A stretch of 64,000 bases of DNA from positions 1 through 64,000 of the forward strand of contig MVRE01000012.1 in NCBI GenBank assembly GCA_002067895.1, in the 5' to 3' direction. The translations under genes were made by a program, and so were the position numbers. Below, one piece after another: positions 23,132-53,746 of the stretch. The notes beneath the pieces are model-generated. The model did no database searches. It was not told the origin of the DNA and saw only the letters and a list, made by a program, of their open reading frames with translations. Each line of letters begins with the position of its first letter. Positions within the stretch are counted from its first letter, which is position 1. Source of the DNA: Methanoregula sp. PtaU1.Bin051. GTDB lineage: Archaea > Halobacteriota > Methanomicrobia > Methanomicrobiales > Methanospirillaceae.

Positions 23132-26100
23132 ATGAGTAGCATTTTCCAGATGCATGAGAAGATTGTTGAAGATTATCAGAAATATGTACAGAGTTTTCTC
23201 TCAATCTCGGATGACAGAATCCGGGATTTTATCGAAGATCACCTTGTCCGAAAAAATTCACTCTGGCCCGATGCTCTCATCCAGGTCAATCCCGCATATG
23301 AATCCGCCTCAACAATCGAGAAATTAGTTCAGGAAAAGATTCTCCACCCAACGCTTGCCGACATTTTCCGCGATGAACAGAACCGTTCACTCCTCCTGTA
23401 CCGCCACCAGGTCGATGCAATCAAGAAGGGAACAGAACGCCGGTCATTCGTTGTGACGAGCGGGACCGGTTCCGGGAAAAGCCTTGCCTATCTCATTCCG
23501 ATTTTCGATGCCGTTGCCCGTACGAATCCTGGGGATCCCAAGGTTCGGGCAATCATCGTTTACCCGATGAACGCCCTTGTCAACTCCCAGTATGAAGCCC
23601 TGAAGCGGTACGCGGAAGGTTTCGAGCGGAGAACCGGGAAACCGTGTCCCATCAATTTCAGGAAGTATACCGGGCAGGAGAAGGACGAAGAGCGAAAGCA
23701 GATCCAGCAGAACCCGCCCCATATCCTTCTCACCAACTATGTGATGCTCGAGCTGATGCTGATCAGGCCGGAAGAGCATACTTTCGTCGATGCAACCACC
23801 TCGGGCATCCAGTTTCTGGTCTTTGATGAACTGCACACCTACCGGGGCCGGCAGGGTGCTGATGTTGCGCTGCTGATCCGAAGACTGCGGAAGCGTTGCG
23901 GGAACCCGGACCTGCTCTGTATCGGTACCAGCGCCACCATGATTGCCGGCAGGAAGACGACGGCATCGGAACGCAAACTCGCCGTCGCCAACTTCGCTTC
24001 GACGATTTTCGGTGTGCCCATTGAATCACACGATATTATTGAAGAGACGCTCCAGCGGGTCACCCAACACCCAAGAACTCCTTCAAAAGAGGAGTTGGTT
24101 CGAAGCCTGAAGTCCCAGGTCCCGGCCTCCAAAGAGGCATTTCTCGCTGATCCGCTGACCGCGTGGATCGAGTTTACATTCGGCATTTATCAGGAGGAGG
24201 AAGGGCATTACCGGAGGCGGGTCCCGATCAGTCTGAAAGACGGGGCGAAGATGCTGGCAAAGGAGACAGGATTGCCCTGCGAGGATTGCATGTCCCGGCT
24301 CAACCAGATGTTTCTTGCCGGCAGCCGGTTCATCATGGACGGCGGCTTCCCGCTTTTCGGATTCAAGCTCCACCAGTTCATCTCTCAGGGCCGTACAATT
24401 TATTCAACGGTTGAACGTCCCGAGTCCCGCTATCTCACACTTGAGGGCCAATACTATGCGCCGGGCACCGAAGAGAAGAAACTCCTCTATCCTCTGAAGT
24501 TCTGCCGTGTCTGCGGTCAGGAATATTACATGGTGAGCCGCGATACGCACGAGCAGGTGATGTACCCGGATGACGAGAATGCTGATTACTCAGATGAAGA
24601 GGGATCGTCCGGTTATCTCATGCTTGCGGTCAATGACGATCGGCACACATGGGGTCTTGAAGATATCCCGCCGGACTGGATTGATACAAAAAGTAAGAAG
24701 ATCAAGGTGAAGAAAGCCCGGCAGAACAATGTTCCTGTCGCGGTCTGGGTTCGTCCCGATGGTTCCTACACAGATGCATCATCAGAGGGGCGGCCTGAAG
24801 GGAGTGTCAAAGCCTGGTATCAGCCCAAGCCGTTCATGCTCTGCCAGAGCTGTGGAGAATATTACACCGCACGAAGCCAGAACGATTACCGGAAACTGAG
24901 CGGGCTGGCAACCGAAGGCCGCAGTACCTGTACGACCGTGCTCTCCCTCGCAGCATACCAGCGGGCCCCGCTCGCTAACATTGAGGGTAAGGCCCGTAAA
25001 GTGCTGAGTTTCACGGATAACCGGCAGGATGCATCGCTCCAGGCCGGGCACTTCAATGATTTTGTCCAGGTCTCATTCCTCAGGGGAGCAATATACAAAG
25101 CCCTCAGGAAAGACGGGCAGCTGAAATACGACCAGATCGCCGACAAGGTACTCAGTGCCACGGGCCTGACAATCAGGGATATTGCCGGCAATCCCGCGAT
25201 CGATGAACATACGCCGAAGGCCAAAGAGACCTGGGATGCGTTCCGGGATCTCCTTGAGTACCGGATTTATGAAGACCTGCGGCGCGGCTGGCGTGTCGTC
25301 CAGCCCAACCTTGAGCAGGTCGGCCTTCTCGCATTCGAGTATCAGGGTCTGGATGAGGTGTGCGAAAAAGACGCTCTCTGGAAAGAGATCGGGCCAATGC
25401 GGGATCTCTCAAAGGAAGAGAGAAAGGAGATTGCAAAGAATGTCCTGGATTTCTTCCGGAAGAAACTTGCAATCAGGACGGAATGTTTCGATGACGGCCA
25501 CCTCCAGCAGCTCCACCGGCAGGTCTACCATACCATCAATAAAAAATGGAGCCTTGATTTCATCGAGAGCAAACCCACGCATGCCGGCAAGTTCGTGCTT
25601 CCCGGGAAGAGCGAGGCTCTGCTTTTTACTAACAGCCTGAGCGAGACGAGCCTTGTCGGAAGATACCTCAAACGCAGCCTCACAATCACAACGGATTACC
25701 GCCCGTTCATCAACCGGTTTATCGATCTGTTGTTCACTGCCGGGATTCTGATCGAAAGCAAAGAACGCGGCAACCCGTATTTCCAGGTCGATGCATCGGT
25801 GATTCTCTGGAAGGTGGGGGACGGGAGTCCCAAACGTGATCCCATCTATTCAACCAAGGCCGAAGGGCCCTCATTTGACCAGGTGGAACGCCGTGCGAAT
25901 GAATATTTCAGCAGGTTCTATCAGGAAGTAGCCCTGTCACTCAAGGACGTGGAGAGCAGGGAGCATACGGCACAGATAAAATATGAAAACCGGGCTGAAC
26001 GCGAGAACCAGTTCCGCGAGGGCAAACTTGCCGCCCTCTTCTGTTCCCCGACAATGGAACTTGGTATCGATATCGCCGACCTCCAACTCGTTCACCTCCG

Positions 26101-28243
26101 CAATGTCCCGCCAACACCGGCAAATTATGCGCAGCGGAGCGGGCGGGCCGGGCGGAAAGGAGATCCTGCTCTCGTGCTCACGTACTGCTCCGCAGGGAGC
26201 GGACACGACCAGTACTTCTTCCACCACCGTGACAATCTGGTCGCAGGATCGGTCAGGGCACCACGGATCGATCTCGGCAATGAAGATCTCGTACGGGCCC
26301 ATATCCATGCCCTCTGGCTCTCCTACGTCAGGCTCTCGCTGGGCTCATCGATCGACGAGATTGTGGATCTTGGGATCAAGGACTACCCGCTCCAGACAAA
26401 TATAAAAGAGCAGATCCAGCTGTCTGAAGACCGGCTGAAAAAGTGTTTTGCAGACGTGAAGGAAGTTCTCGCCCGCTGCGGACACGATCTTGCAGAGAAT
26501 ACCTGGTATAATGATGAGTGGCTGATGACGGTTTTACGGAGCGCTCCGAAGGATTTCAATGCCGCCTTCCAGAGGTTCCGCGAACTGTTCAGGTCGGCCG
26601 ATCAGCTCTGGGAAGATGCGAACAACCAGATGCGGATCCCCAGCCGCGACAAGGAAAAAATGGAACGGGCAAAGAACCAGCGGATGGAAGCCGAGCGGCA
26701 GAAAAATCTCCTCTGCAACCATACCTCGAAAAAAGAGGAGTCGGACTTTTACCCGTACCGGTACCTTGGGAGCGAAGGATTCCTTCCAGGCTACAATTTC
26801 CCCCGGCTCCCCATCCGTGCATTCATTCCTTCCAGTTCCAATGAAGGGGAGTTCATCTCCCGGCCCCGGTTCCTTGCAATCACCGAGTTCGGCCCCCAGG
26901 CTTTCCTCTACCATGAAGGGACGAAGTATCAGGTCAAACGCCTGACACCCCCACCCGGCGGGCTGGCGTCACTCCGCCGGGAAGCGAAAGTATGCCAGAA
27001 CTGCGGGTACTTCCATACCGATGTGAAGCGGGACCTCTGTGATAATTGCGGCGTGGCCTTGGATGCTACGACGAGTGAGATCGTATCGCTTCTTGAAATG
27101 ACAAACGTCAGTGCTATCCGGCGGCAGAAGATCACGTCTGACGAGGAGGAGCGCAAGCGCTGGGGTTACCAGCTGAGCTCACACTTCCGTTTTGCCCCGG
27201 GCCCTGATGGGAAGAAGCGAACCGTTGAAGGCGTCGTGCAGGACAGCGCTTCAGCACCGCTGCTGAACCTGACCTACGCACCTGCCGCGACCCTGTTCCG
27301 GATCAATCACGGATGGCGCATCCAGCGGGAGAAGTCGTTCCATATTGACATGGCAACCGGCGACTGGATGCGGACACCGGATACAGAAGAGAGTGATGCA
27401 GAGCCGACAACCTCGATCCAGCCCGAAGCGGTGAAACTGTTTGTGCAGGACACCATGAACATGCTGCTCGTGAATTTTGCCGGGGAAGACGAAGTCGATG
27501 ATGCGATCCTGGCATCATTCCAGTACGCGCTTCAGCGGGGCATGGAGACGGTATTCCAGATCGATGAAGCTGAGATCGCTTCTGAACGGATCGGGACCGG
27601 AAAGAATGCAGCAATCCTGTTCTGGGAAGCGTCGGAAGGTGGTGTCGGTGTCCTGAAACGGCTTGTCACGGAGCAGGAGACCCTTCGGCAGGTCGCTGTC
27701 GCTGCACTGGAACGCTGTCACTTCAATCCGGAGACCCTTGAAGAAGATCCCGAGGCCAAGGACTGCTCCCATGCCTGCTATGAATGCCTGCTCTCCTTCA
27801 AGAACCAGCGCGATTACCGGAAACTCGACCGGCACCTGCTCCCGGCCTTGCTTTCCAAGCTGAGCAAGAGTACGTCGTTTGTGAAAAAAGAGGACCGGAA
27901 TTACGATGAACAATACCGCTGGCTCCATGAGCAGACTGACCCGCAGTCCGGTCTCGAACGTCAGTTCCTCGATCATCTTTACCGGACAAAACGGAGACTG
28001 CCGGACGGAGCCCAGGAACGGCTTGCCGATTATTACAGCGAACCGGACTTTGTCTACGATCCGAATGTTCTCATCTTCTGCGATGGATCGGTGCATGATT
28101 TTAAGGACCAGATGCGGGTGGATGAGGATTCCCGTACGGGCCTGAAGGAGAAAGGCTACCGCGTCATCGTGATTCGCTATGACAAGGATCTCGAAGCGCA
28201 GATCAAGGCTCATACGGATATCTTCGGTAAAGGGAGTGCGTAA
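23132..28243 (+). CDS. Large DEAD/DEAH helicase with DUF1998 and C-terminal nuclease-like domain
   Basis: This protein of about 1,700 residues has an SF2 helicase core: Walker A TSGTGSGKS near 115-123, DELH near 238, and motifs V/VI in LGIDIADLQLVHLRN and YAQRSGRAGRKGD near 985-1015. It contains zinc-binding pairs (CRVCGQEY, CQSCGEYY, CQNCGYF...CDNCG) and the DUF1998/MZB signature CSHACYECLLSF near 1555. The last 110 residues look like a Vsr/DUF559-type nuclease fold: ERQFLDHLY, then PDFVYDPN, FCDGS, H, and DEDSRTGLKEKGYRVIVIRYD. The architecture overlaps DruE of Druantia and a DrmA-DrmB fusion of DISARM. ATG 23132 is preferred to the upstream TTG at 23114. It heads a tight operon with SNF2 and methylase genes. 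Confidence 0.85.
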   Translation: MSSIFQMHEKIVEDYQKYVQSFLSISDDRIRDFIEDHLVRKNSLWPDALIQVNPAYESASTIEKLVQEKILHPTLADIFRDEQNRSLLLYRHQVDAIKKGTERRSFVVTSGTGSGKSLAYLIPIFDAVARTNPGDPKVRAIIVYPMNALVNSQYEALKRYAEGFERRTGKPCPINFRKYTGQEKDEERKQIQQNPPHILLTNYVMLELMLIRPEEHTFVDATTSGIQFLVFDELHTYRGRQGADVALLIRRLRKRCGNPDLLCIGTSATMIAGRKTTASERKLAVANFASTIFGVPIESHDIIEETLQRVTQHPRTPSKEELVRSLKSQVPASKEAFLADPLTAWIEFTFGIYQEEEGHYRRRVPISLKDGAKMLAKETGLPCEDCMSRLNQMFLAGSRFIMDGGFPLFGFKLHQFISQGRTIYSTVERPESRYLTLEGQYYAPGTEEKKLLYPLKFCRVCGQEYYMVSRDTHEQVMYPDDENADYSDEEGSSGYLMLAVNDDRHTWGLEDIPPDWIDTKSKKIKVKKARQNNVPVAVWVRPDGSYTDASSEGRPEGSVKAWYQPKPFMLCQSCGEYYTARSQNDYRKLSGLATEGRSTCTTVLSLAAYQRAPLANIEGKARKVLSFTDNRQDASLQAGHFNDFVQVSFLRGAIYKALRKDGQLKYDQIADKVLSATGLTIRDIAGNPAIDEHTPKAKETWDAFRDLLEYRIYEDLRRGWRVVQPNLEQVGLLAFEYQGLDEVCEKDALWKEIGPMRDLSKEERKEIAKNVLDFFRKKLAIRTECFDDGHLQQLHRQVYHTINKKWSLDFIESKPTHAGKFVLPGKSEALLFTNSLSETSLVGRYLKRSLTITTDYRPFINRFIDLLFTAGILIESKERGNPYFQVDASVILWKVGDGSPKRDPIYSTKAEGPSFDQVERRANEYFSRFYQEVALSLKDVESREHTAQIKYENRAERENQFREGKLAALFCSPTMELGIDIADLQLVHLRNVPPTPANYAQRSGRAGRKGDPALVLTYCSAGSGHDQYFFHHRDNLVAGSVRAPRIDLGNEDLVRAHIHALWLSYVRLSLGSSIDEIVDLGIKDYPLQTNIKEQIQLSEDRLKKCFADVKEVLARCGHDLAENTWYNDEWLMTVLRSAPKDFNAAFQRFRELFRSADQLWEDANNQMRIPSRDKEKMERAKNQRMEAERQKNLLCNHTSKKEESDFYPYRYLGSEGFLPGYNFPRLPIRAFIPSSSNEGEFISRPRFLAITEFGPQAFLYHEGTKYQVKRLTPPPGGLASLRREAKVCQNCGYFHTDVKRDLCDNCGVALDATTSEIVSLLEMTNVSAIRRQKITSDEEERKRWGYQLSSHFRFAPGPDGKKRTVEGVVQDSASAPLLNLTYAPAATLFRINHGWRIQREKSFHIDMATGDWMRTPDTEESDAEPTTSIQPEAVKLFVQDTMNMLLVNFAGEDEVDDAILASFQYALQRGMETVFQIDEAEIASERIGTGKNAAILFWEASEGGVGVLKRLVTEQETLRQVAVAALERCHFNPETLEEDPEAKDCSHACYECLLSFKNQRDYRKLDRHLLPALLSKLSKSTSFVKKEDRNYDEQYRWLHEQTDPQSGLERQFLDHLYRTKRRLPDGAQERLADYYSEPDFVYDPNVLIFCDGSVHDFKDQMRVDEDSRTGLKEKGYRVIVIRYDKDLEAQIKAHTDIFGKGSA

Positions 28244-28245
28244 GG

Positions 28246-31136
28246 ATGGCAGAGGAGAGTATCGGCTCCATTGTCAGGTGCCGGAACCGCGAGTGGATTG
28301 TCGTACCATCTCCCGATGAAAATGTCGCCCTCCTTCGTCCGCTTACCGGCAGTGAGAGAGAACTCTGCGGGATCTACCGGCCATTGATCGGGATGGGCCT
28401 CGATGCCATCGAGCCGGCGACATTCCCGCTCCCCAAGCCAGAACACTCAGGCGATGCTATTGGTGTCGGGTTACTGTGGAATGCCGCCCGGTTGTCCCTC
28501 CGTGATGGTGCGGCTCCGTTCCGTTCCCTTGGGCGGGTTTCGGTAAGGCCCCGTCCGTACCAGTTCGTCCCGCTCCTGATGGCGCTGCGCATCCAGCCGG
28601 TCCGGCTGCTGATTGCCGACGATGTTGGTATCGGCAAGACCATCGAATCCCTGCTCATTGCCCGCGAGATGCTCGACCGGGGGGAGATCTCACGGCTCTG
28701 TGTGATCTGCCCGCCCTATCTCTGTGACCAGTGGCAGAAGGAACTTGCCGAGAAATTCCATATTCACGCAGAGGTCATCCGTTCCGGTACCATCGGGCGG
28801 CTCGAACGGGAATTGCCCTCCGGCGACTGGAGCATTTTCAATTATTACCCGTTCATTGTCGTCTCCATCGATTACGTGAAGTCTGACCGGAACCGCTCCC
28901 AGTTCCTGCAGTTCTGCCCGGACTTTGTGATCGTTGATGAGGCCCACGGCGCTGCCCAGCCTTCGACAAAAGCAGTCGGCCAGCAGCAGCGGCACCGGCT
29001 GCTCAAGGATCTCGCAGCAAAGCCAACCCGTGACATGATCATGCTGACGGCTACGCCGCACAGCGGTGTTGAAGAATCATTCCTCTCTCTCCTTGGACTG
29101 ATTAGGCCGGAGTTTGCGAAATACAATCTGGCCCAGATGAACGAGAAGGAGCGAATTGCATTATCACAGTATTTTATCCAGCGGCGACGGGCCGACATTA
29201 AAAACTGGCTTGGGGAGACCCGGTTCCCGGACCGGGAGACCGAAGAGATTACCTACACGCTCTCCCCGGCATACCAGGATCTCTTCAAACGGGTCTACGA
29301 GTTCTCCCGCGAGATTGTTAAAAGCGGCGAGACACTCAAGGGCTGGAAGCGGAGGATTAAGTTCTGGCATGCTCTGGCCCTGCTCCGCTGCGTGATGTCG
29401 AGCCCGGCCGCTGCATCAGCAGCTCTGGTGAATGCAGCGAAGAGCCGGACGCTCGATGTGGAACCTGCCGCTGATGAAAGCGCCCAGGATGATTCCTATG
29501 CTGCGCTCATCTACGAGCCGACCGATGACACGGTAAATGATACCCAGCCGGCAACGATCATAGAGGAAGGAATCAAGGATCTGTCTGCCGGAGAGGTGCG
29601 TTCCATTGCTGAGTTTGCCCGTCGTGCGAAAGAGATCCGTGAGAAGGAGATTGATTCCAAAGTCGAGACCTGTGCAACCCTTGTCAAGAAACTCCTCAAA
29701 GAAGGATACAATCCCATTATATGGTGCCGGTATATTGCGACGAGCGATTACCTTGCGGACGAACTGGTAAAACGGCTCGGGGGATCCTATCCGGATATCT
29801 GTATCAAATCGATCACCGGTGCGATGCCCGAAGAGGAACGGAGGGAAAAAGTCGATGAGCTCGGTTTGCATACCCGCCGCGTTCTTGTGGCGACGGATTG
29901 CCTTTCTGAAGGTGTCAACCTCCAGCAATCATTCGATGCTGTCGTGCACTATGATCTCCCGTGGAACCCGAACCGGCTCGAACAACGGGAGGGCCGGGTT
30001 GACCGGTTCGGCCAGCCAAAGGACAAGGTAAAAGCCGTCCTCCTCTACGGGCGTGACAATCCGGTTGATGGTGCGGTGCTGGATGTCCTCCTCCGCAAGG
30101 CCCGGGAGATCCGCAACAGCCTCGGCATCACAGTGCCGGTCCCGACCGACAGCGAAACCGTGATGGAGACCGTCTTAAAGACGCTCTTTTTCCGGGCCGT
30201 ACCGGAACGGCAACTCGCCCTTACTGATTTCATTCCGCTCGATACGGGAGAGACCATCCAGAATGTGCACAAGCGCTGGGATGAGGCCGCAGCCCGCGAG
30301 AAGGAGAGCCGGACCCGGTTTGCCCAGCGGGCCATCAAGCCGGATGAGATCGAGAAAGAGCTGAAAGAGACCGATAGTGTCCTTGGAGATCCGGATGCGG
30401 TAAAAGTCTTTGTCATGAATGCCTGCCAGCGGCTCGGTGTTACCGTTTCACCGCAAAAAGTCGGATCATATGATGCTTTCACACTGCGATCGCTCGACCG
30501 GCTCCCGGAAATGGTGAGGATGGAACTTCCGGATACAGCCTGTCAGAAATGGGAGATGCAGATCGGATTTACCACACCAGTACCGGAGCGTATCCAGTTT
30601 CTTGGACGCAATCATCCGCTTGTAACTTCCTTGGCACAATATCTCTTTGAAGAGGCGCTCGCCAATGGCACTGATGCGGCGGCCCCCCGATGCGGTGTGA
30701 TCAAGTCATCTAAGGTTGATACCCGCACGATGCTCTTCCTCCTGCGGGGCCGGTTCGCAATGAAAGCCCCACAGCAGAAATCCCCGCTCCTTGCCGAGGA
30801 AGTGATCGTGACCGGGCTCCGTGGATCGGTGTCAGCTGCTGACGGGTGGCTTGCCGAGAGCGATGCGCTCGACCTCCTCACGACAGTCCGGCCTGAAGCG
30901 AATATTACCGAAGCGGAACGGCATGAAGTCCTCACCGAGACCATTGCTGCATGGGAAAAACTCCAGGCACCGGTCAGGAAACTTGTGGAGCAGAAGGCAG
31001 CAGCGCTCGAAGAAGCCCACCGCCGGGTACGGAAAAGCGTGGATATCCCGCGCCGGGGCCTCGCGGTCACCCCGCACCAGCCCCCCGACCTGCTGGGAAT
31101 TCTGGTTATTATCCCGATACCGACGGGGGCCTCCCG

Positions 31137-31140
<4 letters not shown>
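28246..31140 (+). CDS. SNF2-family helicase, DrmD-like
   Basis: This 964-residue SNF2/HepA-type ATPase has Walker A ADDVGIGKT at about residues 124-132, DEAH at 231-234, the TATPHS motif near 270, and a C-terminal helicase lobe with LPWNPNRLEQREGRVDRFGQ near 565-585. Such proteins translocate along double-stranded DNA. Length, domain order and position before an adenine methyltransferase match DrmD of class 1 DISARM. It begins 2 bases after the helicase stop and overlaps the methylase start as ATGA, so all three are translationally linked. Function in defence is inferred from the family and neighbours. Confidence 0.85.
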
Positions 31141-35053
<3,913 letters not shown>

Positions 35054-35057
<4 letters not shown>

Positions 35058-37912: not shown

Positions 37913-38452
37913 TCACCGCTGTTCTTGACGAGAATAATATCGTCTCCCAGGCACCATCCACACCTGCCCTATCTCATCAAACGCCATCTCGAACCGCTTG
38001 GGCCCTACTCCAACATAGAATAACGCCGGCGAAAATGTGGACCCGGATTCATTCCCCATTGGCCTAATAAAATGGATCCGGGCTGAGAGAAAACAGACCC
38101 GGCACGACAACGCCGTCAGCGTCTTCCAGGCCGCGGTCTCGGTGGCTGACTTCCAGAGCACGATCGCTTCTGTAGTCCGGCCCGCAAGCCGCTCCTGATA
38201 CAACTTCGAGAACCAGACCTCGACACCGGGCCCGAACGGGGGATTGAGGAAGACGCGGCCCTCCCATGGCTGGACGAGCCCGTTATCCCGGATGGTGTAG
38301 TGCTTCGCGGCAGGCACGTTCGGGATCTCCGTGCTGTTGCTGGCCGGGTCGAGGTCGATCGCGCCCATGCAGGCGATCACGGCATCGAGGATGAACTGCG
38401 GGGTGTAGTGCTCGGTGCTGGCATGGGAAAGGAGGGCCGTGGGCACGGTCAT
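37913..38452 (-). CDS. Phage-type N6-adenine methyltransferase
   Basis: This 179-residue protein matches the phage Dam family (DNA N-6-adenine-methyltransferase). It has EHYTPQFILDAV near the start, DLDPAS as the SAM-binding region at about residues 34-39, and FLNPPFG as the catalytic (D/N)PP(Y/F) motif at about 68-74. A conserved WKSATET follows. Such enzymes methylate element DNA and can block host restriction. The start overlaps the stop of the primase gene by 4 bases, so it is the last gene of the replication operon. Confidence 0.9.
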   Translation of the reverse strand: MTVPTALLSHASTEHYTPQFILDAVIACMGAIDLDPASNSTEIPNVPAAKHYTIRDNGLVQPWEGRVFLNPPFGPGVEVWFSKLYQERLAGRTTEAIVLWKSATETAAWKTLTALSCRVCFLSARIHFIRPMGNESGSTFSPALFYVGVGPKRFEMAFDEIGQVWMVPGRRYYSRQEQR

Positions 38453-41400
38453 ACTGCCACGCCCCTTGTACTCAGCGATCGCGTCTCCCTACTATAACAG
38501 TGCTCGCAGAGCTTCACGCCAGCCTGCCGGTCGATCCATGCGGCCCTCTCCAGCCCGCAGACCGAGCACTTCCCTACCCCAACCGTCACCCGTTCGCACC
38601 GGGCCATGTCGAAGGTCCCGGGCAGCGGGACCGAAGCCTCCTGTTCGGCCCTCACCTGCTCCTTGTAGCACGACCGGCATATCCGCCGGGCGTCCTGCTG
38701 GTCCTTGGGCCGGGCCCGGCGCTCTGCGGTGAACTTCTCCACGTACCACGAGCCCTTCTTTCCGCAGACATAACACGCGGTCTGCGGCTCGGGCGGTTCG
38801 AGCGGCTTGTAGTCTTTGGCCCGGATTGTGCGGGGCGGGCCGGGGGTTGCTGTGGCCGGGGCCCTTGTTTCCTGCACGTTTGCAGCAGGTTGCGTACCGC
38901 TGCTGCAAACAATCGGGGCTCTATACAGTGCGGGTTTTTCGTTTTGTGCAGGTTTTTGGGAAGATCGGTTTTCGTTTGCTGCATTTGCAGCATTTTTTAC
39001 ACACTGAGCAGGATCTGATCCGGAACTTTCCTGAGTAGCAGTATTCCCGTTTTGCTGAAAAGTTCCTTCTCTTAGAAAAGAATTTTTATTATTATCATCT
39101 CCTTTTGGAGATCCGGAAGAGCCGGGCGCTCCGTTCATCTTTTCAGCATTTGCTGCAAAACTGCTGGAAACATGCTGCAATGCTGCAAACGAGCCGGTGC
39201 CGCTCTCGTTACTGCCATTGTTGCCGCTTCCGTTGTTGCTGCTGCCGTTGCTACCATCACCGTTGCCCCCGTCACCCGGGCCCCGGTCAAGCCAGCACGG
39301 TCCGCCGGTCATCCAGTTCCGGTAGATCCCCCGGTTCCACGCGAATGCCTCCGTCCTGCGTCTAACTGACACGCCTTCTTCCTCGCTCATCGTCACCGTC
39401 CGGTCGGTGAACGAGATCGCGGGGCACTTCTCCAGAAGCCCGGTGTAGTTCTTCCCCCGGCTGTCGTAGCCCTTCAGGGTCCGGTAAATACTCGAGTATG
39501 ACCAGCCCGTGAGCTCCTGCAGGTCCTGGATTGTGAACTCGGGCCGGTCTGCTTTCTGGATTGCGGTAAGCAGGTCGGCCTCCCGCCGGGTCAGCTTGGA
39601 CTCCTGCCCACCGGACGTGCCCGAGAGCTGCGCGAATACCTCGTTTGCTGCTGCAAAGTCGGCCTCGCCCGCATAGATGCAGAGCGTCCTGTCCTCTGCG
39701 GTCTTCTGCTCGCGCTGCAGGAAGAAGAGCGCCGCATGGCTCTTGATGAGGTCGTAGAGCATGTCCGGGTTGCGCCGGTTGCTGATGGCATGGAACCGGA
39801 TCCGCTCGGAGAACGGGATCACGACCCAGACCATCTGCTCGTGCAGGATCTCCCAGACGGCCCGGCAGGTGGCGAGTTCCGGCGTCTCGTCCGGCAGCGC
39901 CCCCGGCTCCTGCCGTTCCTTGGCCTGCTTGGCCGCGAGCACCCGGGCGTCCTGCTCGGGCGACTCGTCGATCCAGCAGGTGAGCATCCGGTTCATCACC
40001 TGGTCGTCGCCCGTCCCTTCCTTCTTGGCGATCCACCAGACGCACCGCTCGGGAATCGTGCAGACCCGGCAGGTCAGGTCCTTGGTGACCGTCGTGTGCG
40101 TGATCGGCTCGTGGAAGTTCGAGGTCGCGGACTTCAGGATCTCCTGGATCCCATCCGAGAGTTCGGTGTCGTCGCTCATCAATACGGAGCGGGGCGCGAG
40201 GTCCTTCATGTAGTAGAGGGCCTTGTTGCTGACCGTGCCCTTCACCTTGTACCGGTCCGGCACCTGCCGGAGCATCTTCTTGAAGGCATGCGTCTTGCCC
40301 TTGCCGGAGTCGCCGGTCACCGAGACGTGCAGCCCGTCCGAGTTCTTCACCGCCTGCGAGGCCATCGAGAGGATGAGGCAGCGGGCAAGGATCTCGTCGC
40401 CAACATGCTCCTGAGCGAACGCTTTGAGCATCAGGGCCACCGGGTCGCCGTGCTCCAGTACGTCGAGTGCGGCCGTGCGGGCATCGGGCGGGGCTGCTGG
40501 CAGGGCCGGGCCGGTACCCTCGTTCTCCACCTTTGCCTTGGCCCGCTCCTTTCCCCAATGTTTCTGCCTCTGCTCCCAGTCTTTGCGCTTCGCGGCACGG
40601 TCGGGTTCGTACCTTGCCCGCAGCTCGGCCCACCGCTGCACCCCGCCGCCGCAGGAGGTGTGCTTGCAGCCGGCGAAGACCGCACCGTTGCCAAACTGGA
40701 TCGCAAAGGCCCCGTCCTTGTGCGCAGAGGAGAACGGGCACTGGTCGAAGACAAAGAGCGTGCCGCCGCTGTACGGTTTCTCGCTGCGTGTGGCAAAGCC
40801 GTGCTGGGAGAGCCAGCCCCGGAGGTCGAAGCCCTTCCCCTTTGCGGCAGGCTTCTCCCCCTGCTCTTCGGCGGGCAGCCGGGCGGCCAGCTGCTCCAGC
40901 AGAGCCCGGCCCGCGATCTGCGGTACGTCCGGGGCCGACAGGATCCGGCTCCGGCGGTGCGGCCGCTCGGGCGTGGAGTCGCCCTTCCGGGAGACCGTGC
41001 CGTAGAGCTTCCAGATGCGGCCCGCATTGAAGTTCGCCGCATCCACGGTCACCTGCCCGTCCGAGAAGAGCGTGTCCAGTGCCGCAAGGCAGCCCTTTGT
41101 GAGCGCCGTTGCTGCCTCATCGTTGGGCAGGTCGATCCGGTAGAGCAGGTGGGCCCCGTTGCCCGAGTCGGCCCGGACCGGTTCCGGAAACCCGAGCGAG
41201 GCCAGCCACGCCGCGATCGCATCCGCTTTGGCGAGCGCGAAGCCGTGCTCCGAGTCCGTGCTGGAGACCCCGCTCGGCCGGACCGGGTCGATGTCGATGG
41301 GGAGCCAGCGCCGGCGCACGATATCCGCGTCGCTGGTCGTCGCGTCCTTCCGGGAGAGCCGCAGCTTGATCCGGTTCGCCCGGCGCGAGAGGAGGGCCGG

Positions 41401-41592
41401 GTTCACCTCGTTCAGCGTGACGTAGATGCCCGTAACCGAGGGATCGACATCAAGCGGCTCCACGGCCCGGACAAGAGCGTCCGGATCGCTGAAGTAGCCG
41501 GAGTGGGTGTGCTGGTCGGAGAGTGCGCGGACTTCGATGACCTGACCGGGCCCGGCTAACCGGGCGATTGCCTCACGGAGCAGGCCATCCAC
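38449..41592 (-). CDS. Primase-helicase replication protein
   Basis: This 1,047-residue protein joins several parts. An archaeo-eukaryotic primase-like domain has DID at 100-102 (LPIDIDP), SGNGAHLLY at 143-151 and a third acidic/Asn region near 184-195. A zinc-finger-like segment lies at about 285-314. A P-loop ATPase has VTGDSGKGKT at 425-434 and a Walker-B-like MSDD near 472-475. A winged helix lies near 690, an Asn/Gly/Ser-rich linker at about 760-790, and two C-terminal zinc ribbons (CYVCGKKG...CRSC; CSVCGLE...CEHC). It should prime and unwind element DNA. The start is GTG with GGTGA just upstream. It is the main replication gene of the element. Confidence 0.85.
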   Translation of the reverse strand: MDGLLREAIARLAGPGQVIEVRALSDQHTHSGYFSDPDALVRAVEPLDVDPSVTGIYVTLNEVNPALLSRRANRIKLRLSRKDATTSDADIVRRRWLPIDIDPVRPSGVSSTDSEHGFALAKADAIAAWLASLGFPEPVRADSGNGAHLLYRIDLPNDEAATALTKGCLAALDTLFSDGQVTVDAANFNAGRIWKLYGTVSRKGDSTPERPHRRSRILSAPDVPQIAGRALLEQLAARLPAEEQGEKPAAKGKGFDLRGWLSQHGFATRSEKPYSGGTLFVFDQCPFSSAHKDGAFAIQFGNGAVFAGCKHTSCGGGVQRWAELRARYEPDRAAKRKDWEQRQKHWGKERAKAKVENEGTGPALPAAPPDARTAALDVLEHGDPVALMLKAFAQEHVGDEILARCLILSMASQAVKNSDGLHVSVTGDSGKGKTHAFKKMLRQVPDRYKVKGTVSNKALYYMKDLAPRSVLMSDDTELSDGIQEILKSATSNFHEPITHTTVTKDLTCRVCTIPERCVWWIAKKEGTGDDQVMNRMLTCWIDESPEQDARVLAAKQAKERQEPGALPDETPELATCRAVWEILHEQMVWVVIPFSERIRFHAISNRRNPDMLYDLIKSHAALFFLQREQKTAEDRTLCIYAGEADFAAANEVFAQLSGTSGGQESKLTRREADLLTAIQKADRPEFTIQDLQELTGWSYSSIYRTLKGYDSRGKNYTGLLEKCPAISFTDRTVTMSEEEGVSVRRRTEAFAWNRGIYRNWMTGGPCWLDRGPGDGGNGDGSNGSSNNGSGNNGSNESGTGSFAALQHVSSSFAANAEKMNGAPGSSGSPKGDDNNKNSFLREGTFQQNGNTATQESSGSDPAQCVKNAANAANENRSSQKPAQNEKPALYRAPIVCSSGTQPAANVQETRAPATATPGPPRTIRAKDYKPLEPPEPQTACYVCGKKGSWYVEKFTAERRARPKDQQDARRICRSCYKEQVRAEQEASVPLPGTFDMARCERVTVGVGKCSVCGLERAAWIDRQAGVKLCEHCYSRETRSLSTRGVAV

Positions 41593-41640: not shown

Positions 41641-41931
41641 TCAGGATCCATGCCGGCCCCCCTTCCGCTGCCGCACCGGGACGACCTGCTGCACCGGCTG
41701 GACCGGCGGGCCCTGCGGGACAGCTACGGCCTGCGTCGCCTGCTGTGCGTGCTCGTTGAAGGTTTCAACCACGATGCGGTACCGGTGCTCCCGGACCCGG
41801 CCCACCGAGATCCGGAAGACAGTCTCGCGCTTCTCGCGGATATGGTCCGCGATCACCTTCGGGATGAGGTAAAGTGGGACGCCTTCGATCCGCTCCTCCT
41901 GCAGGCCGGGTGTGGGCGGGTCACCGGACAT
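41641..41931 (-). CDS. Small protein upstream of primase (array gene 8)
   Basis: This 96-residue protein has a short folded part (YLIPKVIADHIREKRETVFRISVGRVREHRYRIVVE-type helix-strand) and a Gln/Pro/Val-rich C-terminal tail. It is not clearly a member of the five-paralog family next to it. It overlaps the upstream array gene by 11 bases and lies 48 bases before the primase start. No function can be named. Confidence 0.65.
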   Translation of the reverse strand: MSGDPPTPGLQEERIEGVPLYLIPKVIADHIREKRETVFRISVGRVREHRYRIVVETFNEHAQQATQAVAVPQGPPVQPVQQVVPVRQRKGGRHGS

Positions 41932-42292
41932 AGGCGGCCACCTCGCGGACGCCGGCCGCCGTCACCTCATAGCAGTGGATAGCCCCGGAGGGCGAGATCA
42001 CCCAGACCTCGCAGCGGAGGAAGATGTCGCCCGGATACATCGTGAGCAGCGATCGCAGCTGGCAGCACTCGAACCGGCAGTAGGACTCGACATACTCCGG
42101 TGTCACCGCTCCCTGTGCGTGCCGGATCTTGACACAGAGAGCCTCGTAGTTGCCCTGCATCCCGATCAGGTGGAGAGGGATGTACCGCGAGAGGAAATGA
42201 TCGGTGACCGGCACGACCGGCTCGTAGCCCCGGGAGGCCAGCAGTTTGCCGCACCGGTTCTTCGCTGCGTGGAAGGCGCTCTGGGCGATCAT
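41921..42292 (-). CDS. Array paralog 1 (B)
   Basis: This 123-residue protein shares the array layout: an N-terminal helix ending in LLASRGYEPV, a central strand LHLIGMQGNYEALCVKIR, an acidic helix, then FLRCEVWVISPSGAIHCYEVTAAGVREV. The central part recalls the LIA...ExxYIKVK strand pair of restriction-endonuclease-like folds, but key acidic and Lys residues are not conserved, so catalysis is doubtful. It overlaps the next upstream gene by ATGA. Function is unknown. Confidence 0.7.
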   Translation of the reverse strand: MIAQSAFHAAKNRCGKLLASRGYEPVVPVTDHFLSRYIPLHLIGMQGNYEALCVKIRHAQGAVTPEYVESYCRFECCQLRSLLTMYPGDIFLRCEVWVISPSGAIHCYEVTAAGVREVAAYVR

Positions 42293-42705
42293 GTTGGGCC
42301 TCCATCTGATTCCACGGGCTTCCGGTCCGGGTGCTGTGCCTGACGGATCCCGTCATGGGTGATCTCGAAGGTCTCGAACTTGTCGGACGGGACCGAAAAC
42401 CAGACCTCATACCGGATCATGCTGTTGGACGGGATGCCCCGAAACTTCTTTTCATAGAACTTTCTCTCGTTGCCGCAGAACGGGGCCGCTTCCTCGGGCG
42501 AGCGGATCGGGTGCGGGGAGGCTTTCAGCTTCACCCAGAGGCATTCCTCCGTCCCGTCCGTGCCCTTCTTCGTTGCGATCAGATTGTAGGGGATAAAATT
42601 GGAATGGGGGAAGCAGTCGCTCATGGCAGCCGGCTCATAGCCGAGTTCCCGGAGGATTGCCCCTGCCTCCCGCTCCAGGATCACCATCCGGTGCATCGCG
42701 GTCAT
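42289..42705 (-). CDS. Array paralog 2 (C)
   Basis: This 138-residue member has the same order: VILEREAGAILRELGYEP, then PYNLIATKK...ECLWVKLKASP, an acidic helix with PFCGNERKFYEKKF, and MIRYEVWFSVPSDKFETFEITHDGIR. It overlaps both neighbours by ATGA, so the ribosome can pass from one gene to the next. It is the member in which the LIA strand and the following VKLK strand are clearest. Confidence 0.75.
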   Translation of the reverse strand: MTAMHRMVILEREAGAILRELGYEPAAMSDCFPHSNFIPYNLIATKKGTDGTEECLWVKLKASPHPIRSPEEAAPFCGNERKFYEKKFRGIPSNSMIRYEVWFSVPSDKFETFEITHDGIRQAQHPDRKPVESDGGPT

Positions 42706-43133
42706 GATGTGCCTCCTGCTGGCACGGCCGCCGGTGTAGCCGGCGGGATCCTCGGGATCTCCCGCACGCGGTCTTTGTACACTTCAAAGCAGGTGAGGCC
42801 GTGCCGGAGCGTGGAGACCCAGATCTCATAGTGAAGGCCGGGCATTGCGCGCCTTCTCTCCATGCAGGTCCGGTACCGGGTGATGTCCCGGCCAAGGAAC
42901 CGCTCCACGTTCGCAACGGTCGGCTCCGTGCGCGACATCTTCCGGATCCGGATATACCGGGTCTCCAGAGCCCCCCGCGTAGCGATGAGATGGGCCGGCG
43001 GGAGTTTCTTTAAGAATACGGGCGGGACCGCCTGCACGGTGTAGCCGGCCCGCTGGAGCTGCTCGCGGACGCCCTGCTCCAGTACAACGCAGCGCCGGCT
43101 CGTCACAGGAGACCCCTCCGCAGCACCGGGCAC
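42702..43133 (-). CDS. Array paralog 3 (D)
   Basis: This 143-residue protein follows the family pattern (VLEQGVREQLQRAGYTV, AHLIATRGALETRYIRIRK, FLGRDITRYR, GLHYEIWVSTLRHGLTCFEVYKDRVREI) and adds a Pro/Ala-rich tail. The N-terminal 12 residues may be translated from an upstream codon, so the start is uncertain. It overlaps the preceding gene by 31 bases, the largest overlap in the array. Confidence 0.75.
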   Translation of the reverse strand: MPGAAEGSPVTSRRCVVLEQGVREQLQRAGYTVQAVPPVFLKKLPPAHLIATRGALETRYIRIRKMSRTEPTVANVERFLGRDITRYRTCMERRRAMPGLHYEIWVSTLRHGLTCFEVYKDRVREIPRIPPATPAAVPAGGTS

Positions 43134-43531
43134 CGTATACAGTCATGGAGCGAACCGGCCCCGGCCGGCTCGGGTGTCGGGATCTTCCGGATACTGTCAG
43201 CCACCACCTCATAGCAGTGGAAACCGGTCCTCGCTGCATAGAACCAGATCTCGCAGTGGAGCCCGGTATCCCCGGGAGAGCGGGCCTGTATGTTGCGGTA
43301 GAGCGTGATCTCCTTTGCGCAGCGTTCTTCGATCTCGGCGGGCGTTGGGATTTTCCCGCCGGCAGTGCAGATTCGCACATACCGGGTCTCGCCCGGCTCG
43401 CGGAAGGCCACCACGCAGAGCGGCAGGGAATTTTTCCGTTCGCTTTTTTTCAGGATGTGGGCCTTGTAGCCCTCTGCCCGGAGCAGCTCCTGCGCCTCAT
43501 ACTCAAGGATGTAACAGGGCCGGGCCGTCAT
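43103..43531 (-). CDS. Array paralog 4 (E)
   Basis: This 142-residue member has YILEYEAQELLRAEGYKA, LCVVAFREPGETRYVRI, a CAKEITLYRN helix and GLHCEIWFYAARTGFHCYEVVADSIRKI. The C-terminal extension contains two Cys residues. Similarity to paralog D is strong in the ETRYxRI and EIWxxxxRxGxxCxEV segments, pointing to relatively recent duplication of that pair. Confidence 0.75.
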   Translation of the reverse strand: MTARPCYILEYEAQELLRAEGYKAHILKKSERKNSLPLCVVAFREPGETRYVRICTAGGKIPTPAEIEERCAKEITLYRNIQARSPGDTGLHCEIWFYAARTGFHCYEVVADSIRKIPTPEPAGAGSLHDCIRCPVLRRGLL

Positions 43532-43926
43532 GCAGCCACACTCCGTGCGGGCTGTTGGGAGAGGACGGCCCCTGTCCTCCGGTCGATGAGCGTGTCCGGC
43601 AGGACCTCGATCTCGGAGTACGTGCCGAATGGCATCGCGACGAGGACCTCGTAGTGCTCGCTCGTCTTCCGGGGGCTGGAGCGCATCAGCCGGCGGAGGG
43701 CCCGGATATCCTCGTCACAGTACTGTGCGATCTCCGGCCCGGTCGTTAGGGTGTTGGGCGAAACCTTCAGTTTGACGTGCAGGGTGTCCTTCTCACCCCG
43801 CTTGCAGATGAATGTCTCCGGATCGCACCACTCATTAGGAGTGACGGAGCGGATCACTTGGTATCCGCGGCGCCGGAGTTCCTTGGCGGCCTTCTTCACG
43901 ACCGGATACAGTTTGTGCTTGATCAT
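43528..43926 (-). CDS. Array paralog 5 (F)
   Basis: This 132-residue protein is the most diverged paralog: VVKKAAKELRRRGYQVI, TFICKRGEKDTLHVKLKVSP, YCDEDIRALRRLM and EHYEVLVAMPFGTYSEIEVLPDTL. It retains the GY, VKLK and YEV landmarks. It overlaps both neighbours by ATGA. Function is unknown. Confidence 0.75.
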   Translation of the reverse strand: MIKHKLYPVVKKAAKELRRRGYQVIRSVTPNEWCDPETFICKRGEKDTLHVKLKVSPNTLTTGPEIAQYCDEDIRALRRLMRSSPRKTSEHYEVLVAMPFGTYSEIEVLPDTLIDRRTGAVLSQQPARSVAA

Positions 43927-44288
43927 GCCGTACCCCTCCGGGCCGTGGCAATAATCGCTGGTTCAAGCTCATCGGACGGAATCTCGAAGAAGATGCAGGA
44001 GATGTCCTCACCGAGCGCGACCGCAAGGAACCGGTCACGGGGCAGCTGGTACCGCTGCTTGCCGACCTCGATGATCACACCGCGGCCGGACGGATTGAGA
44101 TGCACCGAGCCGGCAACTTGCGGCGGGTCGTTCGCTGTCGGGTAATGCCGCAGGAGCGGCACGCTGTCGCCCATGAAGAGGAGCCGCCCGAGTTCCTCGG
44201 GGCAGAGGTAGTGCGGCTCGCCCATGATCCGGATGTGGACGCAGCCCTCGCTCCCGCTGATGATGGAGCCCGCGGCAAACGCGGTCAT
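43923..44288 (-). CDS. Hypothetical small protein of array (G)
   Basis: This 121-residue protein is strand-rich (VHIRIMGEPHYL, VHLNPSGRGVIIEVGKQRYQL) and ends with IFFEIPSDELEPAII. It lacks the GY...EIW landmarks of its neighbours, so I treat it as unrelated or very diverged. It overlaps the genes on both sides by 4 bases. No function can be named. Confidence 0.65.
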   Translation of the reverse strand: MTAFAAGSIISGSEGCVHIRIMGEPHYLCPEELGRLLFMGDSVPLLRHYPTANDPPQVAGSVHLNPSGRGVIIEVGKQRYQLPRDRFLAVALGEDISCIFFEIPSDELEPAIIATARRGTA

Positions 44289-44608
44289 GGCGCACCTTCC
44301 TGGATTTTCGCAGCAGAATCGGTACAGGCCCGATCATGGAATGAGACAGCAGGGGCCGCAGGATGGGCCCCGGTGCATCCGCCATTGTTCCAATTGGCTT
44401 GCGCCACCTCCCCACGAGGAACAATTACCCAGACGCCGTGCTCGACCATGATCTTGCCAATACCGTGGAAGCCTGTTTGCCGTTCATAGGCGTCGATGGC
44501 TTCCTGGGTGACCCTCAGTGGGCAACCCTTTGAAGCGCCCGCCGGGCAGGCGCTTCTCGCCGGTGAAGTGACACCGCACTTCTCCGACCGTGCAGAACTC
44601 TGCTGCAT
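44285..44608 (-). CDS. First gene of array operon (H)
   Basis: This 107-residue protein is Ala/Cys/Ser-rich at its N-terminus. Its C-terminal part (DAYERQTGFHGIGKIMVEHGVWVIVPRGEV) has a strand reading GVWVIVP that echoes the EIWVS strand of the paralogs. ATG 44608 is preferred because GGTGA lies 5 bases upstream; an upstream TTG is also in frame. As the first gene of the operon it may be regulatory, but no domain is recognised. Confidence 0.55.
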   Translation of the reverse strand: MQQSSARSEKCGVTSPARSACPAGASKGCPLRVTQEAIDAYERQTGFHGIGKIMVEHGVWVIVPRGEVAQANWNNGGCTGAHPAAPAVSFHDRACTDSAAKIQEGAP

Positions 44609-44813
44609 AGATTTCACCAACTTTTTTGTTTTTGTTCACAAGCGGTACCGCGGCGGGCAAGGAGTGCCGGCCGTCCAGAGATCAGAAACGCCGGCCCCGG
44701 GCGCGGAACTGGAGCCTCGGCTATCGCAGGGGCGGGTGCTGCCATTCTCCGAACGGCAGGTGACCTACACAGCGATCACAGAGACCGGAGCAACGCGCTC
44801 ACAGGACCAGCGG

Positions 44814-45053
44814 TCAACGACGCAAACGAAAAGAGGAGAGCAATACGCGGGAGCCACGGGCGCTCGATGCATTGACCGCATGGCCCCAGGTCAGATTATT
44901 AATGATCTCGGACGGAAGCCTTACCATGTCCGCCACAAGGTACACGAACAGCGTGTAAAAATTGAAGATGGCCGCATAAGTCGCCGCATCTCGCTGCGAT
45001 TTGACATACGGGCGCAACTCCCTCGCCGTTACCGTACCGGGTTCTTTTAACAT
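44814..45053 (-). CDS. Possible 79-residue membrane protein
   Basis: The frame starts at ATG 45053. A TTATAA box about 30 bases upstream would give a leaderless transcript. The product has a central hydrophobic stretch (ATYAAIFNFYTLFVYLVADM) that could span the membrane. There is no ribosome binding site and no family match. It may be a real small membrane protein or a chance frame. Confidence 0.35.
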   Translation of the reverse strand: MLKEPGTVTARELRPYVKSQRDAATYAAIFNFYTLFVYLVADMVRLPSEIINNLTWGHAVNASSARGSRVLLSSFRLRR

Positions 45054-49849: not shown

Positions 49850-52800
49850 TCATATGAAGTCTGCCAGTCCCAGCTGCTGCTGCTTCTCCTCGCCAAACGT
49901 GGAGGTGATCGCAAGGTCGAGTACTTCCACGCGCTGCCTCGTGTATTCCGAGACGTTGTATTTCCGGCAAAGGTCTTTTGACATTTCGAGGTATTTCTTG
50001 ACCGATCCCTCGTGGACGGTCGGGACGATGTTCCCGTTGCAGATGCTCTTGCCCCGCCACTTGGTGCACTTGCCTGAAAGAGGCATCCGCCGGTAGGTCG
50101 TGTTGCACTTCATGCACCGGAACTTCTGCTTGGAGAATGCCGAGAGGTTGCCCATGAGATCGCGGATGAAGTGCGTTGTTAAGACCCGTTCTGCAACATC
50201 ATCGGCGTCCACAGCCCGGATCCGGGTGGCGAGGGTTAGCTCGGCCTCGAGCTTCTCGAACATCGACTTGAGCTGGGTGTAGGAGGACTCGATCGGGCCC
50301 GCGGAGATGTCCGAGGTATCGTGGGTGAAGAAGAACCCCTCCAGCTGGGCCGGCGTGCCGAGCCGGCGCTCGACCCGGTCGATCAAATGCTCGATGTCCT
50401 TGGGCCTTGTGTAGGCAAGCGCAGCCGTGTAGAGTTCGAGAGGGTAGGAGCGGCAGACGTCGACGTTTAAGCTCTCCTTGTCGATCTCCGCCGGGTCGAT
50501 CCGGCTCGTCAGCACGAGCGGCGCATCCATGGACCCGCCGCGGTTCTCCGGCAGAAACGATCTCGAGAAGTTGATGAGGCCGTCCAGGAGGAGCATGATA
50601 CAGTCCTCGTCGCCGTCGCACTGGCCGGTGAAGATGCCGTTTGCGGTCATCGTGTGATCGTCTGCAACCGTGAGACAGTACACCCTTTCCTCCGGGGCCG
50701 GGACCGGTTCAATTGCCCGGATCCTGTCGGAGATTACTGCCGTTCCCATGAGTACGGGGACTGAGTCCCCTTCCTTCAGTTCGAGGGCCCTGATCTTCCG
50801 GAGGTACGCGGTGTCCCAGACCAGCATCGCGTGGTCCGGCGTGACGACAAGCTCCCGCTTTCCGGTCGTCGTGATCCGGAGAAGTGAAGCGGGGGAGCGG
50901 TGGATCGAGACTGAGGTTACCCGCCTGATACGCACGTTTCCTCCGGTATCTACTGCCCGTGTGTACCATGGCTGCTGGGGATCGGAGTAATAGGTCCCGA
51001 GCCGGTCGATGCCCGGGCGGCTGATGTCGAAGTTTTCGAGGACGAACTGCCGGATCGGCAGCGTTTTCCAGCGTTTCCCGTCATAGACCTCGATCTCCGT
51101 GTCGCCATAAAAGCAGTTCCTTCTCTTTGCAGCATGGAAGAACGGGTGGGCGTAGCCGACATTGGCTCTCGTGAACCCGACGATCCGTGCAAGCACCCCG
51201 GCGCTTGTGTGCGGGGCGAGGCCGATGACGAGGTGGCCGATGAGGTCGTCTTTTAACTTCGCGTTGTAGAACGCGGGAAGGCCGTAGCAGGAGACAAGGA
51301 GGTTGTCGATGAACGCTGCCACCTTCACCATGTAGTCTGCGCACGAGTCCGAGATCAGGATGTCCTGCGGCCGCAGTTCCAGCACCTGCGTCGGGTCGGT
51401 AAGATCCCTGCCGTCAATGTCCTTTTCGTACCCGAGACTCCTTAAGCGGGCGACGTCTACGCCGACCTCGGCCGGGCGGATGTGGGTGAGCGGCAGGTCG
51501 ATCATGTCGAACCGGGTCGTGCCGTCCTTGAAGACAAAAATCTGCTGCTGTGCCCGCAGGATCCCTTTCTCCAGCGCCTCGACCGTCTTCTCCCTTGAGA
51601 TCACCCCCTTGACGCCCTTGACGAGGGCGATGCTCTCAGGCCTGATATGGAGCTGTTCCATGGTTTTGAGGTACTCTTCCTTCACGTTGACCGATAGCCG
51701 CTGCTGGCAGACGGTCGGGACATTGCAGCCCGGGCAGCGGGCAGTATCGGTCTCCCTTTTGCACCGCGGACATGTATAGACCGGCACGGTGTGCCCGCCG
51801 CACTTTCCGCACCGGTTCTTGTACGTGATCTCGCCGCACCCCGTGCACCGGCGCCGGCCAACCTCGATCTCGATCACCCCGCCCGCCTTCTGGAAGTCGA
51901 TCCCGTTGAAGTCCGCGTCCGCCTCCTGCGTGTGGTTCGAGGCTTCCTGGAACGACCGCCGCGACCCCCCGGACTCGCCAAGCGGGAAGAGGACGTGGGG
52001 GGGCGGGTTCATCTTCCGGGGCTTCGATTTGCCCGGCCGGCCCATACGACCGCCGATCCGGGTCCCGGCCCGCGAACGGATTTTAAATCCGCTGAGGTGC
52101 GAGACAAGGGCGAGCGGGTCGTCATCCGGCGCAGTGCCGGGGATGATCCGCTTCTTCAGGTTTTCATCAAGGCCGAGGCATGCTGTCAGGACACGGTGGT
52201 TTTTGATTGAGATCCCGTCGTCCCTGACCGTATGGGGGAGGAGGATCTCCTCGAGAATATGTTTCACTTCCGTCCGGTTCGGCAGGATGAGGGATTCGCC
52301 GTCGATCCTGCCTGCACCTGATACCGTCTCGGCAAGCCGGCGGACCTGCTCGCAGGAGATGTCGTCCCACAGGTACGTGTACTCCGGGTGGAGGAACGCA
52401 CCGTTCCTGGCAAACGCGATCGCCTCCTCCTCATTCCCCGGGCGCTTCTTTCCCCCTTCCAGCAGCCACCACTCCTCGCAGTAGGCCGACGGGACGAGAG
52501 GGTGGTTGTTCTCCATGAACTCACCGAACGAGATGAGGATCTCCCCGACGTCGAGGATCCGGTCCACCTGCGGTGCGAGTTGTTTTGCCGTTGCTGTATC
52601 ATCGATGCGCAGCACGCTCCCGTCCTGCAGCCTGACCGTCGGGCCCTCGATGGAATCGACGGGGACGACCCCGCATGCCTTGCCGGGCCGCTCGGTCTTC
52701 ATCTGGGTGCCTACCGCGAGGAAGTCCCCCAGCAGGTGCAGGGTCGCCGGGTTGAAGCCGGCCGCCGCAAAACCGGTGTTCCGGGACCTGCCGTACCGGA

Positions 52801-53746
52801 GCCTGAAGCCGCCCTTCCGCATCGGGTACGAGAAGACCGGCCGGCCGCCGATCAGGTCGCGGAGGTACTTGTCGAGCGGCTTGATCACGAACGTGCCGTC
52901 GGCGGTCTTCTGCTTGGAGAGCTTGTCCAGCCAGCCCCAGCCGTCCATCTTCATCTTGTCTACGTTTTTCTGGACCTTGGCAGCCTTGCTCGCGATCCCC
53001 TCCGCGAGCACGAGCGCCATGCCGCCCCGGACCGTGTTGGTCTCGACACGCTCGAGGTTCCGGTGCCCGGAGACCTCCTCCTGCTCGGTCGCTTCGCCGT
53101 CGATACAGACCGGGCAGTTCGTGACGATCAACTGGATCTCCTGGTCGCTTGGGAGGTACTGGAGGTTCATGATGCTGTTGTACTGGCGGATTTCCTCGAT
53201 ATACCGCTCGACCTCCTCGTTCCTCGGGATGTAGCGGTTGATACCGAGCGCCCGCCGCACGTAGTCGCCGACCAGCACCGAGAGGGCCTGCGCCGTTCCC
53301 CCGGCGCTCCGGATCGGCCCGGCATAGTAGATCTTCAGGTACTCGGTACCGTCGTCGTTCCTCCCGATGCCGATCTTGGCGATCCCTTCGGTCGGGGCCG
53401 CGACCACCCCCTCGGTCAGGAGCGCCATCGCCGTGCGGATCGCGTGGTCAAGGACCTCCTCACGGCTCGTCTCGCCAAACCGGCGCTGCACGAAGTCGTC
53501 GCCGATCTTAAGAGCCGCCTCCTCGCGAGACATCGTCTTCTCGAGCTCGCGGATACGGGCGGCCACCCCTTTGATCCCCAGCAGGGCCTCGACCCGGTCG
53601 GCAAGATCGCTCGCGATTGGGATCTCAACGTCCGTGGACGGGTCGAGCCCCTGCTTCCGGGCCTTCTGTGCGATCCCTATCGCTGCATCCAGCCCGGCCC
53701 GGAGCGTATTCTCGTACGCCTCCATCGCAGGCGAGCGCTGCAGCAT
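49850..53746 (-). CDS. polC: DNA polymerase D large subunit DP2 with mini-intein
   Basis: DP2 is the catalytic subunit of the euryarchaeal replicative polymerase PolD, working with small subunit DP1 (not in this window). The 1,298-residue precursor includes a 165-residue intein, so the mature protein has about 1,133 residues, normal for the family. Visible parts are the N-terminal domain, zinc-binding clusters (CTGCG...CGKCGG, CPRCK...CPGC near 655-700), the catalytic NCDGDEDC region, whose residues are brought together by splicing (Asn from RRN, Cys-Asp-Gly-Asp-Glu-Asp after the intein), and a C-terminal CMKC...C zinc site. It is a core chromosomal gene outside the element. Confidence 0.95.
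50621..51115 (-). other. Mini-intein in DP2
   Basis: The 165-residue insert begins with Cys ([13 protein letters not shown], block A), has block [10 protein letters not shown] with the TxxH pattern, and ends with block [24 protein letters not shown] reduced to its final Gln, followed by host Cys. There is no homing endonuclease domain. The last residue is Gln instead of Asn, as in PolII inteins of Pyrococcus. It interrupts the active-site motif NCDGDEDC, the usual insertion point. Confidence 0.9.

Follow-up and report, generated by a model that had tools for sequence, protein, structure and literature searches.

Layout of the array operon

The stretch analysed here (the window) comprises 64,000 nucleotides of contig MVRE01000012.1 (positions 1 to 64,000, forward strand) from Methanoregula sp. 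PtaU1.Bin051 (assembly GCA_002067895.1), and possesses, directly upstream of a primase-helicase gene, an operon of eight small genes, five of which form a tandem array of diverged paralogs. These five represent separate ancient ortholog classes that were inherited as a set; by sequence profile they belong to the Hjc/Mrr-type PD-(D/E)XK nuclease family, and they look nuclease-dead. The array is carried by an integrated mobile element and, as far as the literature searched shows, such an ordered and coupled array of dead paralogs is new.

All eight small genes described in an earlier note, which was made from the letters of the sequence alone, were recovered on the minus strand, from 44608 down to 41641, and are followed by the primase gene (38449-41592). 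In order of transcription, they encode the small proteins p107 (44285-44608) and p121 (43923-44288), the array paralogs of class A (SPETF / VKLK type; 43528-43926), class P (43103-43531), class B (42702-43106), class C (42289-42705) and class D, the final array gene (41921-42292), and the small protein p96 (41641-41931), which lies between the array and the primase. Positional homologs of p107 were found in many arrays and one of p96 in most of them, and p121 was also present upstream of the primase in array-less elements (L081, L084 and L085). The start of the class B gene, placed at 43133 by the earlier note, is most likely a GTG at about 43106 that overlaps the preceding stop codon as GTGA. 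With this start, six junctions in a row are four-base overlaps (five ATGA, including those that follow p107 and couple the class A gene, and one GTGA), in agreement with the translational coupling that had been proposed, while the last junction of the eight-gene run overlaps by 11 bases.

The operon probably starts with a gene that precedes the eight first described, because a leader open reading frame (ORF) of 79 residues (44814-45053, minus strand) starts about 30 nt past a TATA-like box (TTATAAGC). The region upstream of the operon could be aligned in eight loci, and the box was kept, with variants, among relatives. Homologs of the leader ORF occurred in loci L033, L038 and L047, and an unlike ORF occupied the equivalent position in L032, L040, L042 and L050. 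Most aligned elements also share a short conserved stretch (TAGGNCACCTGCCG; 44640-44830, minus strand) that lies between the leader ORF and p107; the Rfam search gave no match for it, nor for any other part of the operon.

The primase-helicase itself (1047 residues, minus strand) possesses an AEP-type DID motif, a P-loop at 427, a weakly supported helix-turn-helix (HTH) domain at 669-713 and two C4 zinc fingers, and the array's neighbour is thus a primase, as had been noted, of the AEP type and of a mobile element. Its homologs were detected in 133 of the 232 genomes of the order, with up to nine per genome.

Classes, age and distribution of the paralogs

The five window paralogs share 22-27% identity with the first of them, and their alignment contains an invariant L, GY, P and two E; the motif order previously described, from the GY turn to the EIW/YEV strand, is the pattern conserved across the family. 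Searching with a profile built from the five retrieved further members in 47 of the 149 genomes searched, including the host genome. When separately built class alignments were compared profile to profile, every pair of window classes was linked with a probability of 96.7-100% (E 4e-10 to 5e-41). The alignment and these class matches rule out five unrelated small proteins, and the view of the five as one family was upheld.

The five window genes fell into five different classes in a 67-member tree, each class with 97-100% bootstrap (clade support 100/100 for A, 99/95 for P, 97/86 for B, and 100/99 for both C and D), and the approximately unbiased (AU) test rejected the window five as a single clade (p = 2.75e-44). 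The set is therefore old and was inherited together. The serial duplication envisaged in the earlier note does not hold as a local event, local tandem duplication being ruled out by the class tree and the AU test. A clade uniting C, D and E, corresponding to an ancestral pair of B/P and C/D/E types, was neither supported nor rejected (AU p = 0.31).

The proposed search of archaeal genomes for primase-linked arrays, read by class profile across all fetched loci, yielded 32 intact or nearly intact arrays of two to five genes each across the Methanoregulaceae; the array counts overstate the independent observations because related genomes are not independent samples, and the gene counts of arrays that end at contig edges are minima. 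The arrays were of the types A-P-B-C-D (n = 2, the window and genome G004), A-B-C-D (n = 2), B-C-D (n = 7), B-P-D (n = 2), B-D (n = 12), B-C (n = 2), P-D (n = 2), A-B-E (n = 2) and B-E (n = 1), with five additional degenerate arrays, mostly B*-B-D*. Many of these loci are metagenome-assembled contigs in which some array genes are cut or frame-shifted, and gene calls outside the window were made with a simple ORF scorer. The order was nearly constant (A-P-B-C-D/E), with the exception of two arrays in which P follows B. Every intact primase-adjacent array possessed at least one B or P together with at least one C or D, and arrays without a primase paired B or P with D or E. Within a degenerate array (L052, 1228-2034), two family members were found fused in a single open frame of 268 residues.

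Two further classes occur as lone copies: class S directly upstream of a homologous primase in other genera, mostly at 20-400 bp, and class T scattered through genomes, mostly without a primase. Overall, the family is nearly confined to the host family, Methanoregulaceae as judged from named contigs (Methanoregula and Methanolinea), with rare members elsewhere, and a search with a single array protein found no homologs in phages, plasmids and viral contigs.

Between the window and G004, the ratio of nonsynonymous to synonymous substitution rates (dN/dS) was 0.10-0.21 for the five paralogs and 0.15 for the primase, and other pairs gave 0.05-0.36 (0.05-0.14 for class D), indicating purifying selection in every class. 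Synonymous divergence (dS) between the same two arrays was uneven: P, B and D fell within 0.29-0.35, whereas C reached 0.61 and A 1.46. The value of gene A, roughly fourfold what most neighbouring genes show, suggests that this gene was exchanged by recombination with a more distant element.

Fold family and active site

In Pfam, PHROG, NCBIfam and PADLOC searches, the five array proteins gave chance-level hits at most, and the family assignment was obtained with their single-copy relatives. A profile of 25 of these matched Pyrococcus furiosus Hjc (1gef) over 100 positions with an E-value of 9.9e-7, as well as UPF0102 (E 0.0026) and, weakly, Sulfolobus Hjc (E ~0.01). One single-copy protein (L057) scored above the cut-off of Pfam Mrr_cat, with weaker Hjc, UPF0102 and PDDEXK_5 matches, and an independent Pfam Hjc search of 41 genomes placed three family members above the cut-off. 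Single-copy relatives also matched PHROG 5018 (function unknown), and one of them matched a PHROG named Holliday junction resolvase. In profile-profile comparisons the single-copy relatives were linked to the array classes with probabilities of 95.6-98.8%. The likeness to PD-(D/E)XK folds that had been noticed in the central strands is accordingly, by sequence profile, one to the Hjc/Mrr type with degraded catalytic residues.

The catalytic PD...(D/E)XK residue set of an active Holliday junction resolvase was not found in the family. None of the aligned copies retains the glutamate of the ExK motif; array copies almost always have K or R there, and the single-copy relatives chiefly Q or R. The aspartate of the PD motif was kept in 18 of 40 single-copy relatives and in no member of classes A, P, B, C, D and E, where the position was nearly always H, N, T or C. 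It is the absence of both residues that makes the array proteins look inactive as nucleases, and since the ExK glutamate is missing in the single-copy relatives too, the loss of the metal site appears to be a property of the whole family that probably preceded the arrays. A tryptophan that follows a glutamate in a late strand was nearly invariant in the arrays and may represent a new functional position.

Archaeal Hjc (1gef, 1hh1) is similar to the family in its core profile and shows an equal order of helices and strands in the alignment. Proteins of the Hjc type bind branched DNA as dimers; Hjc, a homodimer that cuts four-way junctions, keeps its E, PD and ExK residues, whereas the present family has lost the E of ExK throughout and, in every array class, the D of PD as well. 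Nuclease-fold paralogs also form the heterodimers XPF-ERCC1 and MUS81-EME1, whose dead subunit helps to bind DNA and whose other subunit stays active. The array differs from these in that all of its members appear dead and that up to five paralogs occur per operon.

Small integrase-bearing archaeal integrated elements have been described around Mpal_2033 of Methanosphaerula palustris (Makarova et al. 2014; PMC4158269). There, arCOG09441 is listed as an HJR (Holliday junction resolvase) family endonuclease of the PD-DEXK superfamily and is linked to arCOG07809, which joins a viral primase to a DnaA-like AAA ATPase and a Zn finger domain (PMC4158269). The present elements resemble those in the build of the primase, which comprises primase, helicase, HTH and zinc-finger parts, and in the HJR-family gene associated with it; an integrase lies upstream in more than 20 relatives. 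The arCOG07809 example Mpal_2033, as given there, comes from the same order as the present host. The single-copy form is therefore provisionally taken to be the arCOG09441 family, on architecture and host order. The gene is called an endonuclease there, unlike the degraded active site found here, and the passages and terms searched in PMC4158269 gave no mention of tandem arrays, ordered classes, translational coupling or active-site loss. No other paper in the literature searched names arCOG09441 or arCOG07809. The earlier statement that no such system had been described thus stands, within the literature searched, for the arrays and the active-site loss, and not for the primase-associated single-copy HJR gene, which was already listed in 2014 (PMC4158269). 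The pRN1 ORF904-type PrimPol plasmids of Sulfolobus offer a further parallel, a multi-domain primase-helicase that replicates a small replicon (PMC4158269); ORF904 differs in belonging to arCOG06914, and that account mentions no resolvase-like array for it.

Possible role of the array and its host element

Judged from their sequences, five such paralogs are most economically read as parts of a hetero-oligomer, as the earlier note had proposed. The reading we favour, which we regard as a real possibility somewhat short of probable, is that the array encodes a heteromeric, non-cutting DNA-binding complex serving the element's primase-helicase as an accessory replication set. Long ago, one ancestral gene next to the primase of the element would have been duplicated, and its copies would have become fixed, ordered subunits. 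Aided by translational coupling, these would assemble into a heteromer that contains at least one subunit of the B/P type and one of the C/D/E type. The heteromer would bind branched DNA or origin DNA but leave it uncut, and would serve the neighbouring primase-helicase while the element is copied. We infer the assembly of the complex, its DNA binding and its action with the primase from several features. The constant order, four-base couplings, conserved classes and two-class rule are what subunits of a heteromer predict, the replacement of the acidic site by basic residues is compatible with binding DNA without cutting, and the place beside the primase in both array and single-copy forms points to a role in element copying.

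Several observations weigh against this reading. Neither Pfam nor the PDB offers a relevant match to the array five as such, so that their link to Hjc runs via the single-copy relatives, and profile-profile comparison with local chromosomal Hjc-like proteins was negative (a small set, partly in the wrong frame). Some members, of class T, lie far from any primase. The primase does not need the family, which was absent from 46 of 80 primase loci in genome contigs (seven more loci were cut off) and had no member in any of 42 viral-contig primase loci; primase relatives without it are thus numerous, which sets limits to a replication role.

The dead resolvase-like subunits might instead block host or rival nucleases or mask the element's DNA, with copies corresponding to targets. 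Such an anti-defence or decoy role would fit the defence cargo of the element and a gene A seemingly swapped as a cassette (dS 1.46 versus 0.29-0.61), but it appears unlikely, as the five fit no PADLOC model, every class shows a low dN/dS, and order and primase linkage are conserved over genera, unlike what is typical of accessory anti-defence genes. The diversifying decoys suggested by the earlier note find no support in the uniformly low dN/dS. The array may also have arisen neutrally, a homo-oligomer turning into a hetero-oligomer by duplication and mutual dependence and gaining no function beyond that of the single-copy form. Single-copy forms do adjoin the same primase in other genera, copy number ranges from two to five while the remainder of the operon looks unchanged, and repeated class loss is apparent; this account is nonetheless doubtful, given that the classes keep distinct conserved residues under strong constraint, which suggest distinct roles or at least distinct interfaces.

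It is less plausible still that the proteins are identity or incompatibility factors, in which the subunit set recognises its own origin and array composition decides which elements share a cell. Different arrays do coexist, genome G068 possessing B-C-D, B-C-D and B-D and genome G085 possessing A-B-C-D, B-C-D and A-B-E, and the uneven dS among neighbouring genes hints at cassette exchange. However, two of the G068 elements are identical in composition, and a search upstream of the array for origin-like repeats revealed nothing convincing, nor any element-specific binding motif.

If the array does encode a non-cutting complex that serves the primase-helicase, a nuclease fold would have been turned wholesale into a multi-subunit DNA-binding scaffold inside one small replicon, hinting at an unstudied accessory factor of archaeal mobile-element replication. 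The arrays would then offer a natural series of one, two, three, four and five subunits for the question of how a homomer becomes an ordered heteromer, with single-copy relatives persisting beside the same primase in sister genera. A more specific version, in which five ordered dead subunits form a defined hetero-oligomer holding branched or origin DNA for the PrimPol helicase and exchangeable genes set element specificity, would be a bold one and is improbable as it stands. If the favoured reading holds and the single-copy family is arCOG09441, the 2014 annotation of that family as an endonuclease would need correction.

Concerning the host element, the replication module ends with a phage-type Dam-like adenine methyltransferase (37913-38452, minus strand; Pfam Dam E 2.8e-9, phrog_111 E 8e-31), a homolog of which also follows the primase in L033, L040, L042 and L044. 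More than 20 array and single-copy loci have homologous tyrosine integrases of about 410 residues upstream, and the flanks as well as the cargo vary between loci, both in favour of a mobile element. The only integrase homolog found in the window (6864-8030, plus strand; E 9e-41) lies about 37 kb from the array and perhaps belongs to another element. The left flank of the window copy matches the G004 flank and the right flank does not, and no integrase is nearby; the window element may therefore be immobile or rearranged.

Between primase and methyltransferase, the cargo of the relatives varies and includes GmrSD, Schlafen/HATPase and DUF4062 genes. In the window, a defence set of two large helicases and an Eco57I-type methylase (23114-35057, plus strand), with matches to Druantia, Dpd and DISARM models, sits beyond the methyltransferase, and none of the eight operon proteins matched a known anti-phage defence model in PADLOC. 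Next to this set, a MADFVQ protein of 168 residues (22442-22954, minus strand) belongs to a multi-copy family of unknown function that Pfam and NCBIfam do not name and that matches PHROGs only weakly. This family was present in 80 of the 91 genomes searched, with as many as 17 copies in one genome; its members often lie at the distal end of the elements, and in some cases they closely follow a lone member of class T. A gene for the DNA polymerase D large subunit, perhaps intein-bearing, lies near the array (49850-53746, minus strand), and the arrays in L038 and L049 are likewise near a DNA polymerase D large subunit gene.

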